Of a stretch of 64,000 nt of DNA, positions 27,247 through 33,425 are shown in pieces; positions within the stretch are counted from its first letter, which is position 1, and every line of letters starts with the position of its first letter. Source of the DNA: Bradyrhizobiaceae bacterium (lineage in GTDB: Bacteria > Pseudomonadota > Alphaproteobacteria > Rhizobiales > Xanthobacteraceae); the NCBI GenBank assembly GCA_947479905.1, contig CANKBJ010000001.1, positions 87,152 through 151,151 of the forward strand. The letters run 5' to 3'. The translations under genes were made by a program, and so were the position numbers. The notes below the pieces were generated by a model. It made no database searches. It saw only the letters and a list, made by a program, of their open reading frames with translations, and was not told the DNA's origin.

Positions 27247-28566
27247 CTAACAACAACTATCCGATATTGAGAGATTCGGTTTGAACTTAAAGAACCCTAC
27301 GTCGATGGCGTCATTGCGAAAGCCTGCCTCACAATAGCACAGATAATAGTCCCACATTCGCTTGAACGTGTCGTCGAAGCCAAGCTGCTTGATCTCGGGC
27401 CATGCTGCGAGAAATCGCTCGCGCCAGACGGCTAGCGTGCGCGCGTAGCTGTCGCCGAAGGGTTCGTACGCAATCAGTTCGAGGCCGACACGGGCGGCTT
27501 GTGTGCGGATGATCTCGACCGTCGGCAGCACACCACCCGGGAAGATATAGCTCTGAATGAAATCGGGCTGCCGGCGATATTTCTCAAAGCGGTCGTCGGC
27601 GATGGTGATGGCTTGCAACACCACGGTACCCTCCGGCGTCAGGGCCTTGCGCAGCGTCTCGAAATAGAGTGGCCAATAACGCTCGCCGACCGCCTCTATC
27701 ATCTCGATCGACACGATGCGGTCGTAGCGCGCCTGGATATCGCGGTAATCCTGCAATCTCAAATCGACGCCGCCGGCCGCCGTGCCGCGCAGCCGCTGTT
27801 GTGCGAAAGCGAGTTGTTCGGCCGACAGCGTGATGCCGCTCACCTGACAGTGCGGCTTGAGGCGTTCCATTAGCGCGCCCCAGCCGCAGCCGATTTCGAG
27901 TACGCGTTCGCCGCCGGCGATGTCGAGCAGTTGCATGACACGGGCGAGCTTTGCGTCCTGGGCGGCCTCGAGCGTCTGACGATGGTTCGAAAACAGCGCG
28001 GAGGAATACTGCATGCCGCGATCGAGCCAGAGCGCGTAGAAGGCATTGCCGAGGTCGTAATGCGCCGCGATGTTGCGGCGGCTGCCGCGGCGGGTATTGC
28101 GGTTGCTCCAGTGCCGCAGCCGGCCCATCAGGCGCTGGACGAACGTGCCGGAAATGGCGTGCTGCATGCCGGTATCGTTGCGTGCGCCGAACTCGAGAAA
28201 CGCGACGAGACTGGGCGTCCACCAGTCGCCGGCGATAAAGGCATCGGCGAATGCGAGTTCGCCGCCGGTCATCAGGCGCCAGACCGCGCGCCAGCGGCGG
28301 ATCACCAGTTTGGCGCTTGGCCCCGGGTTGGGCGCTTGATGTTGCAGCGTCTCGCCGTTCGGCAGCACCACGGTAATGTCGCCATAGGCGACTTGCGACA
28401 GGAAGCGCTGCAATTGCCGCGTCAAAAACGGCATGGTGAGCGCCTTGCGCCGCCTGGAGGCCGGACGCGGCAATGGCGTACTGATGTCTGTCGTGATGTC
28501 GGACCTTGCGTCGGTCATTACGTCAGTCATTACGTCGGTCATTACGTCGGTCATGGCGAATCCCAT
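27247..28566 (-). CDS. Cyclopropane-fatty-acyl-phospholipid synthase-family methyltransferase
   Basis: SAM motif 'VLEIGCGWGALMERL', 'NIAAHYDLGNAFYALWLDRGMQYSSALF', 'FIFPGG'-like 'SYIFPGGVLPT'. Start uncertain because of repeated in-frame ATGs (MTDVMTDVMTDV). Confidence 0.92.
   Translation of the reverse strand: MGFAMTDVMTDVMTDVMTDARSDITTDISTPLPRPASRRRKALTMPFLTRQLQRFLSQVAYGDITVVLPNGETLQHQAPNPGPSAKLVIRRWRAVWRLMTGGELAFADAFIAGDWWTPSLVAFLEFGARNDTGMQHAISGTFVQRLMGRLRHWSNRNTRRGSRRNIAAHYDLGNAFYALWLDRGMQYSSALFSNHRQTLEAAQDAKLARVMQLLDIAGGERVLEIGCGWGALMERLKPHCQVSGITLSAEQLAFAQQRLRGTAAGGVDLRLQDYRDIQARYDRIVSIEMIEAVGERYWPLYFETLRKALTPEGTVVLQAITIADDRFEKYRRQPDFIQSYIFPGGVLPTVEIIRTQAARVGLELIAYEPFGDSYARTLAVWRERFLAAWPEIKQLGFDDTFKRMWDYYLCYCEAGFRNDAIDVGFFKFKPNLSISDSCC
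28509..28556. repeat. Four-copy 12-bp tandem repeat (cgtcRgtcatta)
   Basis: cgtcggtcatta/cgtcagtcatta/cgtcggtcatta/cgtcggtcatgg read directly; lies in the DUF1365/cfa overlap. Confidence 0.95.
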
Positions 28567-29359
28567 AAGCGTTGGAAGGCACTATGGTGATGGGTGAAGG
28601 CGCGGACGGGCGTGGGCGCAACCGCATGCCCTTGATCCAGAGCAGCAGCGCCTCCCAATGGATGCCGGCGATGACCTTCAGCGTCATTAGCGGGAAGGAC
28701 AGGAAAGCGCGCAGCAGCGCGCCGTCCGTCAATGCACCGCGCTCGCCGGCGAGCGAGGCGACGAGGACCGGCCCTTGCGCGTCCGAGCCTTCGATGGTCA
28801 GCGCGACGCGCTTGTCCGGCGGCTGCACGCGAAAGCGATAGGCAATTTCCATATCCATGAAGGGGGAGACGTAAAACGCCTTCAGGCAACGCTGTTCCAG
28901 CGGCTTACCGGCTTCGGCCTCGACCGGAATCAGATAGCTATGCCGTTGCCCGAACGTATTGTGCACCTGATAAAGCAGCGCCCTGAGCGCTGCGCTGCGA
29001 TCGTAGCAATAGTAAACGCTGATCGGATTGAACACGAAGCCGAGAATTCGCGGCATGCACAACAGCCGGATGGCGCCGCCATCCAGCGTCAGGCCGGCGG
29101 CGGCAAGATACGCTTCGACTTGTTCGCGCAGCGGACGGCTCGAGCCGTCGCCGTGATCGGCATTGCGGAAGCCGAACAGGTTGAAGCCTTCAAGCGAGAA
29201 AAATCGCAGCCGGGTCGAAAGGCGCGGCAACTCGTCGAGATCCAGCAATGTCCAGAACACGCGGTAGTTCAGCCGGTGCGTGCGCGGCTTGAAGCGCCGA
29301 TGCATGACGGTGCCGGTGTATAGGCAGGAGGACAGTTCTTCGTCTCGATGGGTCATCAT
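28523..29359 (-). CDS. DUF1365 family protein
   Basis: 'LYTGTVMHRRFKPRTHRLNYRVFWTLLDLDELP', 'PRILGFVFNPISVYYCYD'. Confidence 0.9.
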   Translation of the reverse strand: MMTHRDEELSSCLYTGTVMHRRFKPRTHRLNYRVFWTLLDLDELPRLSTRLRFFSLEGFNLFGFRNADHGDGSSRPLREQVEAYLAAAGLTLDGGAIRLLCMPRILGFVFNPISVYYCYDRSAALRALLYQVHNTFGQRHSYLIPVEAEAGKPLEQRCLKAFYVSPFMDMEIAYRFRVQPPDKRVALTIEGSDAQGPVLVASLAGERGALTDGALLRAFLSFPLMTLKVIAGIHWEALLLWIKGMRLRPRPSAPSPITIVPSNAYGIRHDRRNDRRND

Positions 29360-30711
29360 CGCACCGGTTCCGATGCCGTAGCTACGCGGCCGGCATCGAG
29401 TTGGATGCGTCCGGATTCGTTATCGACATTCCACGGCCGCCGCACGCCGCCGAGCGCCTCGGCGACGGCGAGGCCCGATTGCAGGCCGTCTTCATGGAAG
29501 CCGGCGCCGAAATAGGCGCCGCAGAACCAGGTGCGATTGCGGCCCTGCAGCGACCATAATTTGCCCTGGGCGGCGATTGCCGCCGTGTCGAGCACCGGGT
29601 GTTCGTAGATTTCCGAATGGAATATCGTGCCGGCACGCGGCGGCCGCGCCGGATTGAGAGTCACGAACAGCGGCGTATCGGTGTCGAGCTTCTGCAGCCG
29701 GTTCATCCAATAGGTCACGGTCAGCGCGTCCTCGCTCCCGTCCTGGCCGCTGCCGATATAATTCCAGCTCGACCACACCGCGCGGCGCTTGGGCATCAGC
29801 TGCCGGTCACAATGCAGCACCGCGAGGTTTCGACTGTAGCGGAACAGCGTCAGCAGCGCCCGCTCCGCCGGGCTCGGCTCCGCCAGTAAATTCAGCGCCT
29901 GATCGGCATGCGTCGCCATCACGACGTGATCGAACCGCTCGGTGCCGGAATTCGCCGTCGTGACGTCGACGCCATCGGCATGCCGCTCGACCGAGAGGAT
30001 GGCCTGGTTGAGCCGTATGCGTTCGGCATAGGGCTTGGTGAGCCTGGCGACATAAGCGCGGCTGCCGCCTCTGACGGTGCGCCACACCGGCCGGTCGGAT
30101 AATTTCAAGAGGCCGTGGTTCTCCTGAAACCGGATAAAGGCCGCGGCCGGGTAATCGAGCATCGCCTGCGCCGGTGCCGACCAGATCGCCGCCGCCATCG
30201 GCAACAGGTGATCGTCGCGGAAGGCTTCGCCGTAACCGCCGATTTTCAGATAGTCGCCAAGCGTCGCTTGGTGGCCGAGCCGGCGCATGTCGGCCGGCGC
30301 GTCGCGGTAAAATCGCCGCAGGTCGCGCAGCATCGACCAGAAGCGCGGGCTGAAGAAATTGCGTTTCTGAGCGAACACCGTGGCGAGGTTTTCGCCGGCA
30401 TATTCCAGTTGCCCGTCCCTGAGTGAGACGCCCAATGACATTTCGGTTGCTTCCGACGCCACGCCCAGGTGTTCGAACAGAGCGGTCAGGTTGGGGTAGG
30501 TGTGCTCGTTATAGACGATGAACCCGGTATCGACCGCCACCGTGCCGTGCGCGGTGCGGGCGTCGACGGTGTTGCTGTGGCCGCCGATGCGGTCGGCGCG
30601 CTCATAGACCGTCACCTCGTGGCGGGTGGACAGCAGCCATGCCGCCACCATGCCGGAAATGCCGGTGCCGATGACGGCAATTCTCAGTGGTGCCGACGTA
30701 CCGTTATGCAT
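29356..30711 (-). CDS. FAD-dependent amine-oxidase-like protein
   Basis: 'IAVIGTGISGMVAAWLLSTRHEVTVYERADRIGGHSNTVD', C-terminal 'WFCGAYFGAGFHEDGLQSGLAVAEALGG'. Confidence 0.92.
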   Translation of the reverse strand: MHNGTSAPLRIAVIGTGISGMVAAWLLSTRHEVTVYERADRIGGHSNTVDARTAHGTVAVDTGFIVYNEHTYPNLTALFEHLGVASEATEMSLGVSLRDGQLEYAGENLATVFAQKRNFFSPRFWSMLRDLRRFYRDAPADMRRLGHQATLGDYLKIGGYGEAFRDDHLLPMAAAIWSAPAQAMLDYPAAAFIRFQENHGLLKLSDRPVWRTVRGGSRAYVARLTKPYAERIRLNQAILSVERHADGVDVTTANSGTERFDHVVMATHADQALNLLAEPSPAERALLTLFRYSRNLAVLHCDRQLMPKRRAVWSSWNYIGSGQDGSEDALTVTYWMNRLQKLDTDTPLFVTLNPARPPRAGTIFHSEIYEHPVLDTAAIAAQGKLWSLQGRNRTWFCGAYFGAGFHEDGLQSGLAVAEALGGVRRPWNVDNESGRIQLDAGRVATASEPVR

Positions 30712-30774
30712 CGTTCCTGAGCGCTCCTGAGATGAACCAGATCGGGCTGACGGGCACTACTGCCGCTGAGGATT

Positions 30775-30802
30775 GATACGTGGCGGCTCGTCCGGTGGAT
30801 CA
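30775..30802 (-). promoter_or_regulatory. Putative ECF-sigma promoter for the FAD-oxidoreductase/DUF1365/cfa operon
   Basis: Minus strand TGATCC (30802-30797), N16, CGTATC (30780-30775). Confidence 0.75.
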
Positions 30803-30803
30803 C

Positions 30804-30831
30804 TGATCCAAACCGGTCCGGCTGGCGTATA
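30804..30831 (+). promoter_or_regulatory. Putative autoregulated ECF-sigma promoter for sigma/chrR/DUF1295
   Basis: TGATCC (30804-30809), N16, CGTATA (30826-30831). Confidence 0.75.
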
Positions 30832-30918
30832 TTGCCAATGCAGGTCATGGATCAGGGGTGCATTTCGGACGGCGGCCTTGGGCCGCGCCGGCAATCGAAA
30901 ACGGGCTTTTTCCGGACC

Positions 30919-31497
30919 ATGGCAATGCCGACCGAAGCTAACGGGATAAAGAACGCGGCGGATTTGGCGCGGCTGATCGAGGCGGTCGCCGCTACTCGGG
31001 ATCGCGAGGCGTTTGCGGCTCTGTTCGATTATTTCGCGCCCCGCATCAAAAGCGTTCTGATGCGGTCCAATACGCCGCCGGCCGCCGCGGAAGAGTTGGC
31101 GCAGGAAGCCATGCTGACGGTGTGGAGCAAGGCGGCGCAGTTTGACCGGACGCGCGCGGGCGCTCCGGCCTGGATATTCACAATCGCGCGCAACTTGCGC
31201 ATCGACGCGGTCCGGCGTGAACAGCGCGCCAAAGTGCTCGATCTGGAATCAACCGAATTCCTGGAGCCGCCGCAACAGCCTGACGACGAGCTGGATGCCG
31301 GCGAGCGCGAACAGCGGGTGCGCCGGGCGATTTCCGCTTTGCCGGACGATCAGTTGAAGGTCATGCGGCTGTCGTTTTTCGAAGGCAAGGCGCACGGGGA
31401 TATTGCGCTCGAACTTCAACTTCCGCTCGGGACGGTCAAATCGAGGATACGCCTCGCGATGAACCGCCTGAGAGATTTGCTTGGTGACCTGACATGA
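30919..31497 (+). CDS. ECF RNA polymerase sigma factor (RpoE/ChrR-partner type)
   Basis: 'ETFAALFDYFAPRIKSVLMRSN'-like region 2, 'ARNLRIDAVRREQRAK', region 4 'LPLGTVKSRIRLAMNRLRDLL'; next gene is ChrR-like. Track start at 30832 abuts the predicted -10, so MAMPTEANG is preferred. Confidence 0.9.
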   Translation: MAMPTEANGIKNAADLARLIEAVAATRDREAFAALFDYFAPRIKSVLMRSNTPPAAAEELAQEAMLTVWSKAAQFDRTRAGAPAWIFTIARNLRIDAVRREQRAKVLDLESTEFLEPPQQPDDELDAGEREQRVRRAISALPDDQLKVMRLSFFEGKAHGDIALELQLPLGTVKSRIRLAMNRLRDLLGDLT

Positions 31498-32141
31498 GCC
31501 GACACCACCCGAAGAATACGACACTGGCCGACTTCGCCGCCGGTATGCTGGACGAGGGCCGCAGCCTGGTCGTCGCCAGCCATCTTGCCATGTGCGGCCA
31601 TTGCCGTACGTTCGTGGCGGCGCTTGAAGAGGCCGGCGGTCAGTTGCTGACCGAAGTCGCGCCGGTCGCGATGGCGTCGGACGCCGCCGCGCGCGCGTTG
31701 CGCGTTTTGGATAGCGAGGCGAATGCGCCGCGCGCCGGCGAGCGCAAGAATGCCGCGATGCCGGTGTGGCAGCCGGAACGCAATACATTGCTCGATTATG
31801 AACTCGGGCCTTGGCGCCAGGTCGCGCCGGGGCTGCATCACCGCGTCGTCAAAGTCCCGCCGGGCGGCGGCACGCGCGTATTCATGCTGAAAGCAGCGCC
31901 CGGCATGAAGATTCCGGAGCATACCCACACCGGCACCGAACTGACCTGCGTTTTATCCGGCGCCTTTATCCATGAAGGCGGGCGCTTTGGTCCGGGCGAT
32001 TGCGACGATGCCGATGATCTCGACGGCCACACCCCACTCATCGACGGCGATGAGGCATGTATTTGCCTCGTCGCCATGCAAGGCGAGCTCAAGCTGTCGG
32101 GCCTACTCGGCCGACTGATGCAGCCCTTCGTTCGCATATAA
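31494..32141 (+). CDS. chrR: ChrR-family cupin anti-sigma factor
   Basis: Zinc-binding N-terminus 'HLAMCGHCRTFVAALEEAGG', cupin 'IPEHTHTGTELTCVLSGAFIHEGGRFGPGDCDDADD'; 4-bp overlap with sigma gene. Confidence 0.92.
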   Translation: MSRHHPKNTTLADFAAGMLDEGRSLVVASHLAMCGHCRTFVAALEEAGGQLLTEVAPVAMASDAAARALRVLDSEANAPRAGERKNAAMPVWQPERNTLLDYELGPWRQVAPGLHHRVVKVPPGGGTRVFMLKAAPGMKIPEHTHTGTELTCVLSGAFIHEGGRFGPGDCDDADDLDGHTPLIDGDEACICLVAMQGELKLSGLLGRLMQPFVRI

Positions 32142-32145
32142 AGCA

Positions 32146-32946
32146 ATGATGGCCCTGAATTCCATTGTCGCGCTGATGGTGATTGCGGCCGCTTTGTCCG
32201 CGATCATGACGGCGGCGTGGCTCATTCAGCAGCGCACCGGCAATTCCGGCTGGGTCGATACGATCTGGACATTCGGCGTGGGGCTGACGGGCGCTGCCTC
32301 AGCTCTCACGGCGGGCGTCGAGGTAAGGCAGCTACTGGTGGCGGCATTCGCTCTTGTCTGGGCCTTGCGACTGGGTCTGCATATCGCCCGCCGTAGCGCC
32401 CGCGTCGCCGACGATCCGCGCTATGCCGCGATGATCAAGGAGTGGGGCGCGGATGCGCCCCGCCGCATGTTCCGGTTCCTTCAGATTCAGGCGCTGGCCG
32501 GCATTCCGCTGGTGATGTCGATGTTCATTGCGGCCAGCCGTCCGTGCTCCGGACTTACGATCGGAGATGCGGCCGCGATCCTCGTCATGACGATTGCGAT
32601 TCTTGGCGAAGGGCTGGCCGACCGGCAGTTGGAACTGTTCCAGGCGAACACCGGCAACAAAGGCGCCATCAACGACGGCGGGCTATGGCGATGGTCGCGT
32701 CACCCGAATTATTTTTTCGAATTTCTCGGCTGGATCGCTTACCCGCTGATCGCCATCGATCTATCGGGCCATTATCCGTGGGGATGGTTGGCACTGGCCG
32801 GTCCGGCCTGCATGTATTGGCTGCTGGTCCATGTGTCGGGCATTCCGCCGCTGGAAGCGCATATGTTGCGATCGCGCGGCGATGCCTTTCGCGCCTATCA
32901 ACGGCGCACCAATGCGTTTTTCCCAGGGCCGCCGCGCCGCGATTAG
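32146..32946 (+). CDS. DUF1295 (steroid 5-alpha-reductase-like) membrane protein
   Basis: 'GLWRWSRHPNYFFEFLGWIAYPLIAI', 'SGIPPLEAHMLRSRGDAFRAYQRRTNAFFP'. Confidence 0.92.
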   Translation: MMALNSIVALMVIAAALSAIMTAAWLIQQRTGNSGWVDTIWTFGVGLTGAASALTAGVEVRQLLVAAFALVWALRLGLHIARRSARVADDPRYAAMIKEWGADAPRRMFRFLQIQALAGIPLVMSMFIAASRPCSGLTIGDAAAILVMTIAILGEGLADRQLELFQANTGNKGAINDGGLWRWSRHPNYFFEFLGWIAYPLIAIDLSGHYPWGWLALAGPACMYWLLVHVSGIPPLEAHMLRSRGDAFRAYQRRTNAFFPGPPRRD

Positions 32947-32951
32947 CGGAT

Positions 32952-33368
32952 TCAGGCCGTGCCGAGCCAACCGCCGACCGTCCGCGTGATGTAAAACGAG
33001 GCGGCGCCGGCCAGTCCCGAAGCGACGGCGCCCCAGGCCATATCGGCCAGCGTCAGTTGCAGGGTCCAGTTGCGTAAGGTGGCTTGGTTGGTCAGGTCGT
33101 AGGTGGCATAGGCCAGCAGGCCGAACAACGCGCCGTACATCAGCGCCGGCCCGACCGAGCCGGCTTTCAGCGCGGGCAGGGTGGCAAACACCAGGATGCC
33201 GATCGGATAGATCAGATAAAATGCGATCGCCGCCGGGAGGTTGACGTTTGTTAGCAGGATGTCGCCGAGGGTCGGCCGGTAGAGCCTGGGGCCCATGAGG
33301 CTGAGCCAGACGGCGTCGAGCATGCCAAAAGGCAGCAGAATGGCGAGATAGGTGACGGCATACATCAT
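32952..33368 (-). CDS. DUF2177 family membrane protein
   Basis: 'MLDAVWLSLMGPRLYRPTLGDIL', 'GALFGLLAYATYDLTNQATL'. Start moved from 33395 to MMYAVTYL because a promoter-like site lies at 33398-33425. Confidence 0.85.
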   Translation of the reverse strand: MMYAVTYLAILLPFGMLDAVWLSLMGPRLYRPTLGDILLTNVNLPAAIAFYLIYPIGILVFATLPALKAGSVGPALMYGALFGLLAYATYDLTNQATLRNWTLQLTLADMAWGAVASGLAGAASFYITRTVGGWLGTA

Positions 33369-33397
33369 GGAATCCACCCGGGTTCGGCTTCCCATGT

Positions 33398-33425
33398 AAT
33401 ACGGACGGGATGGGCTAGCGGATCA
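33398..33425 (-). promoter_or_regulatory. Putative ECF-sigma promoter for DUF2177 gene
   Basis: Minus strand TGATCC (33425-33420), N16, CGTATT (33403-33398); same geometry as the two sites near 30.8 kb. Confidence 0.75.

Follow-up and report, generated by a model that had tools for sequence, protein, structure and literature searches.

A back-to-back ECF11 promoter pair with a shared 13-bp dyad and a predicted leaderless sigma factor message

What does a perfect 13-bp palindrome between two divergent operons stand for: a switch between two transcriptional outputs, an operator for a further regulator, or two promoters packed very closely together? The question is raised by the window, the 64-kb stretch of DNA analysed here as a whole, in which a dyad of two 6-bp arms centred on base 30803 is seen directly in the sequence. 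A first-pass annotation had described it as the −35 hexamers, one base apart, of back-to-back promoters of the RpoE/ChrR type, and the palindrome, both promoters, their spacers and their elements are as it reported:

30797–30809, no strand: shared dyad ggatcaCtgatcc, that is GGATCA-C-TGATCC, two −35 hexamers with 1 bp between them
30804–30831, plus strand: predicted ECF11 promoter of rpoE-chrR, with −35 TGATCC at 30804–30809, a 16-bp spacer and −10 CGTATA at 30826–30831
30802–30775, minus strand: predicted ECF11 promoter of ufaD-ufaO-ufaM, with −35 TGATCC at 30802–30797, a 16-bp spacer and −10 CGTATC at 30780–30775

We propose that the region very likely holds the two divergent promoters through which an ECF11 (RpoE/ChrR) system, responding to singlet oxygen or oxidants, regulates itself; both arms would be co-activated, and the sigma factor message is predicted to be leaderless.

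Both promoters stand out far above chance. TGATCC-N16/17-CGTAT occurs three times in the window, as the back-to-back pair and one further copy at 33425–33399 (minus strand), against 0.05 copies expected from dinucleotide shuffles (0 of 100 shuffles reached three). Across the 3.79-Mb genome, the broader pattern TGATCC-N15..18-CGTA gave 15 matches and its reversed control only 2. The same elements make up the consensus of the PSPTO_1043 binding sites in P. syringae, TGATCC-N16-CGTA (PMC5507510), and in S. oneidensis transcription starts have been mapped downstream of TGATCC-N16-CGTA promoters (PMC4336711). Together with the identity of the adjoining regulators, described below, this comparison identifies both promoters as ECF11 (RpoE/ChrR) promoters, in agreement with the type that the first-pass annotation had assigned. 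The gene sets that it had placed downstream of each promoter (sigma/chrR/DUF1295 and FAD oxidoreductase/DUF1365/cfa) likewise agree with the Pfam assignments:

30838–31497, plus strand: RpoE, an ECF11 sigma factor of 219 aa when read from ATG 30838 (Pfam sigma r2/r4; PDB 2q1z)
31494–32141, plus strand: ChrR anti-sigma factor, its start overlapping the sigma stop codon (TIGR02451, Cupin_7, PDB 2z2s)
32146–32946, plus strand: DUF1295 (steroid-5-alpha-reductase-like) protein, third gene of the sigma operon (Pfam)
29356–30711, minus strand: UfaD-like FAD oxidoreductase of the RSP1091/RPA2571 type (Pfam amine oxidase; role from PMC7380195)
28523–29359, minus strand: UfaO-like DUF1365 protein of the RSP1090/RPA2570 type (Pfam DUF1365)
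27247–28566, minus strand: CMAS-family methyltransferase, putative UfaM (Pfam CMAS; name from gene order)

Among PDB entries the sigma factor is most similar to R. sphaeroides RpoE (2q1z_A, E = 1.4e-39; runner-up, E = 2.8e-22), as expected of a group IV sigma factor of the ECF11 type, and its own operon is preceded by TGATCC-N16-CGTA, as in other ECF11 systems. The cognate anti-sigma factor is encoded beside it and carries the zinc-binding and cupin domains characteristic of ChrR: it scores 174 bits on TIGR02451 (cut-off 124.5), matches Pfam Cupin_7, finds R. sphaeroides ChrR as its best PDB match (2z2s, E = 8.6e-34) and shows the HxxxCxxC and HxHxxxE motifs when aligned to that structure. On the minus strand, ufaD and ufaO form an operon divergent from rpoE-chrR with an ECF11 promoter on each side, the arrangement of an R. 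sphaeroides-type locus. In R. palustris, RPA2571-2570-2569 correspond to UfaD, UfaO and UfaM, and the domain of UfaO is DUF1365 (PMC7380195). Because the order FAD enzyme, DUF1365 protein, methyltransferase matches RPA2571-2570-2569, we named the CMAS gene ufaM; this name comes from gene order only, and the protein may still be a Cfa. By homology and gene order, ufaD-ufaO-ufaM would thus be furan fatty acid genes.

The third copy of the motif lies upstream of a gene for a membrane protein:

33425–33399, minus strand: predicted third ECF11 promoter, TGATCC-N16-CGTAT, upstream of DUF2177 (window motif scan)
32952–33368, minus strand: DUF2177 membrane protein (Pfam; start moved from 33395 to ATGATG 33368/33365)

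A DUF2177 start at 33395 would precede the predicted start of its transcript, and we moved it to 33368/33365 for that reason. All six same-genus relatives have the motif ahead of DUF2177, with an N16 spacer in five and N15 in the sixth, and most also show a GGAG-like stretch before the DUF2177 ATG. This promoter would drive DUF2177, extend the regulon and serve as a leadered control for the comparison of start codons below. The other exact N16 matches in the genome (L004, L009 and L014) had no convincing downstream gene in this search for the regulon by pattern only.

To see what evolution has held constant at the pair, we compared loci gathered in several ways. When same-genus loci are aligned, the hexamers and −10 cores do not vary and the gap is 1, 3 or 4 bp, the −35 and CGTAT core of the rpoE promoter being kept in 12 of 12 loci. 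The locus of one of these relatives has the same DNA sequence as that of a MAG named Pseudolabrys sp., which probably puts the window in the Hyphomicrobiales. Among 30 loci chosen by sigma similarity alone, ufaD was divergent from the sigma gene in 24, and 22 of these carried the promoter pair at gaps of 1, 3, 4, 5, 7, 8 or 11 bp, two of them with one mismatch in a −10; the remaining two comprised one locus with a gap of 35 bp and a mismatch and one without an exact minus-strand motif. No motif was present in the six loci of this sample that lacked ufaD. A GTDB scan for the exact pattern at gaps of 0–30 bp returned at least 119 loci, mostly from alpha- and gammaproteobacteria; among the matches listed, gaps ran from 2 to 30 bp and most had sigma/chrR and ufaD/DUF1365 as neighbours. 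Among 398 genomes from the order, the back-to-back pattern was found at gaps of 0–30 bp in 24 genomes (16 genera) and at 31–60 bp in 20 (6 genera), and the reversed control pattern gave no match in either range.

Overall, the hexamers do not change but the gap between them ranges from 1 to 58 bp, and for this reason we view the palindrome as the extreme of tight packing, neither an operator nor a conserved switch. Selection preserves each of the two promoters and, in general, keeps them close together; it does not preserve the dyad. Gaps in the GTDB and same-order loci show a weak preference recurring about every 10.5 bp. Counting one locus per sigma cluster, helical phasing at this period gave p = 0.006 (69 clusters), 0.02 (50) and 0.09 (24); with the period left free, p was 0.05 to 0.3, and significance fades when relatives are pooled. 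Phasing of the opposed hexamers is a weak lead only. In several loci the same promoter pair separates ufaD from DUF2177 (L070, L170, L171, L176, L178 and L185) or from DUF1365 (L057, L084, L093, L119, L153 and L154). Since the ECF11 pair also stands between these other regulon genes, the mirror arrangement seems to be reused beyond sigma/ufaD.

The first-pass annotation had gone on from the dyad to a mutually exclusive divergent switch. On that model, polymerase bound one way shuts the other direction and the cell picks one output. Geometry lends this idea its appeal, as the footprints of two polymerase holoenzymes should overlap when −35 hexamers lie 1 bp apart; simultaneous occupancy of the window pair is, on these known footprints, probably excluded sterically. 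Strong activity in one direction of E. coli bidirectional promoters can indeed repress the opposite direction by polymerase competition alone, but competition mattered there only at high activity (PMC12825309). A choice between outputs is further at odds with the use of one and the same sigma factor on both sides, where no second, direction-setting regulator is evident, with the induction of both operons together by RpoE in R. sphaeroides (PMC3818230), and with a 1-bp gap that relatives do not conserve. We therefore consider a switch quite improbable. With a single sigma factor for the two arms, and with joint induction of the R. sphaeroides operons, co-induction is the expected behaviour, and co-induction with possible competition at full activity would fit better than a choice between outputs.

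The perfect 6+1+6 symmetry could instead mark the operator of a separate dimeric regulator, the resemblance to −35 elements being secondary. Half-sites of such an operator would have to tolerate spacings of 1, 3 and 4 bp within one genus and up to 58 bp elsewhere, and every half-site retains its own N16-CGTA partner. This explanation is highly improbable, and we rejected it on the unconserved half-site spacing.

The two arms are predicted to differ in how their messages begin. ATG 30838 lies 8 nt after CGTA, in frame with the sigma gene and with no stop between, which places it at or beside the predicted +1; the transcript is accordingly predicted to be leaderless, with a leader of 0–1 nt (the base before this ATG is an A, so a 1-nt leader is possible). 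In the same-genus alignment, ATGCA[A/G]G recurs at a fixed distance after the sigma −10, ATG 30838 being the instance in the window. On the opposite arm, transcription is predicted to begin near 30768 (minus strand), giving ufaD a 5′ UTR of about 57 nt with AGGA upstream of its ATG.

We extended the start-codon test to 138 loci, identical ones having been removed and most having been picked by the back-to-back pattern. In 104 of the 138 sigma loci an in-frame, open ATG or GTG followed CGTA, at an offset of 8 nt in 55 and of 9 nt in 49, and every ATG/GTG at these offsets was in frame with sigma (55/55 and 49/49). The equivalent position was a start codon in only 7 of 124 ufaD loci and in none of 14 DUF2177 loci. 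A pyrimidine preceded the start codon in 95 of the 104 (91%, against a background of 37%; p ~5e-31 if loci are taken as independent, which they are not fully), and a pyrimidine there is the usual −1/+1 initiator signature. The offset also equals the distance of 9 nt between the mapped start and the CGTC element of the S. meliloti rpoE9 ECF promoter (PMC3616915). By sigma cluster, 48 were leaderless, 21 leadered and none mixed; leaderless outnumbered leadered loci 62 to 7 in named alphaproteobacteria, and in gammaproteobacteria the ratio was 4 to 17. All 22 testable loci of the sample drawn by sigma similarity agreed with a promoter-linked sigma start. Where DUF1365 follows the promoter, a start codon lies 8 nt after CGTA in 5 of 11 loci, possibly a second leaderless class.

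The promoter ATG might nevertheless go unused; translation of sigma would then start from an internal codon, downstream of an untranslated leader. Every leaderless candidate has an internal ATG, GTG or TTG, although in 23 of the 104 none of these is an ATG. In two plasmid relatives with an in-frame promoter ATG, the NCBI annotation places the sigma start further inside the gene, 41 codons downstream of that ATG in L209 (Shinella plasmid p1) and 34 codons downstream in L211 (an Aminobacter plasmid). In the study of B. japonicum ecfF, too, where transcription was mapped to begin at the annotated ATG, the authors preferred a start codon further downstream (PMC3420878). The stretch from ATG(+1) to the conserved sigma body is only weakly constrained at the protein level, and the extension therefore does not by itself prove translation. 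What speaks against internal initiation is that the sigma frame contains all 104 ATG/GTG codons found 8 or 9 nt after CGTA and stays open up to the promoter, that the equivalent position is rarely (ufaD) or never (DUF2177) a start codon, and that an initiator-like pyrimidine occupies −1. We regard an internal start as unlikely, and ATG 30838 is the most probable start of the sigma reading frame in the window, in preference to the internal ATG 30919 or 30925. More generally, it is likely that across alphaproteobacteria the ECF11 sigma start codon is built into its own promoter at +1, with sigma and the coupled ChrR made from a leaderless message and the ufa and DUF2177 products through ordinary ribosome-binding sites.

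These elements suggest how the locus could work. Once ChrR is inactivated, the freed sigma factor would direct polymerase to the two mirror-image promoters. The plus arm, through its leaderless message, would yield more sigma factor together with its own inhibitor, an autoregulatory loop; the minus arm, through a message with an ordinary leader, would yield the putative furan-fatty-acid enzymes UfaD, UfaO and UfaM. UfaD and UfaO are needed for the destruction of ChrR in R. sphaeroides (PMC3818230, PMC7380195), where RSP_1090/1091 promote ChrR proteolysis and so close a positive loop (PMC3818230); the ufa arm may provide the same positive feedback here. The third promoter copy would drive DUF2177, again from a leadered transcript. 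When strongly active, polymerases probably compete for the site with the 1-bp gap, and both arms would still switch on together. Because the inhibitor and the genes for its destruction flank one short promoter region, the balance of the feedback arms could be set there.

If the sigma message is leaderless, the two feedback arms come under different translational control, and sigma factors annotated from an internal codon are some tens of residues too short at the N terminus. A conserved leaderless start would correct such annotations and make the different translation routes of the two arms testable, and it is this part of the locus that merits experiment. Gaps that range naturally from 1 to 58 bp likewise offer a ready test of competition between opposed polymerases. 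In the relevant open-access literature that was searched, we found no description of a leaderless sigma factor with ChrR; what would be new here is that, in most relatives, the message encoding the sigma factor is predicted to begin with its start codon.

The divergent layout itself is not new: in R. sphaeroides the RSP_1091-1087 operon lies upstream of rpoE-chrR, and each of the two has an RpoE-dependent promoter (PMC3818230). As there, a sigma/anti-sigma operon of the window adjoins an operon led by ufaD-ufaO, with an RpoE promoter for each (PMC3818230, PMC7380195). Unlike the R. sphaeroides locus, the window has ufaM within the ufa operon, in the gene order of R. palustris, and a DUF1295 gene after chrR; the 1-bp distance between its −35 hexamers may be a further distinction. 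With the P. syringae PSPTO_1043/1042 and S. oneidensis RpoE2-ChrR regulons the window shares the consensus TGATCC-N16-CGTA and an autoregulated sigma/chrR operon (PMC5507510, PMC4336711). In P. syringae, however, the ufaD homologue belongs to a separate phrB-led locus (PSPTO_1121-1114), and gammaproteobacterial sigma genes of the sampled loci are mostly leadered, unlike the predicted leaderless sigma of the window.

Bidirectional promoters of E. coli have a shared symmetric −10 and starts commonly 10, 18 or 23 bp apart (PMC12825309). The window resembles them in that opposed polymerases presumably cannot bind together, with competition possible at high activity. It differs from them in form: its −35 elements abut, its −10 elements are separate and its predicted starts lie about 70 bp apart, so that neither the shared −10 nor a distance of ~10–23 bp between starts is found. 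Leaderless transcripts, starting at the AUG, have been reported in S. meliloti and R. sphaeroides (PMC3616915), and the transcription start predicted for the sigma gene would likewise fall at or next to its AUG. In contrast to those cases, leaderlessness is predicted here in many families for a single gene within a single promoter class.
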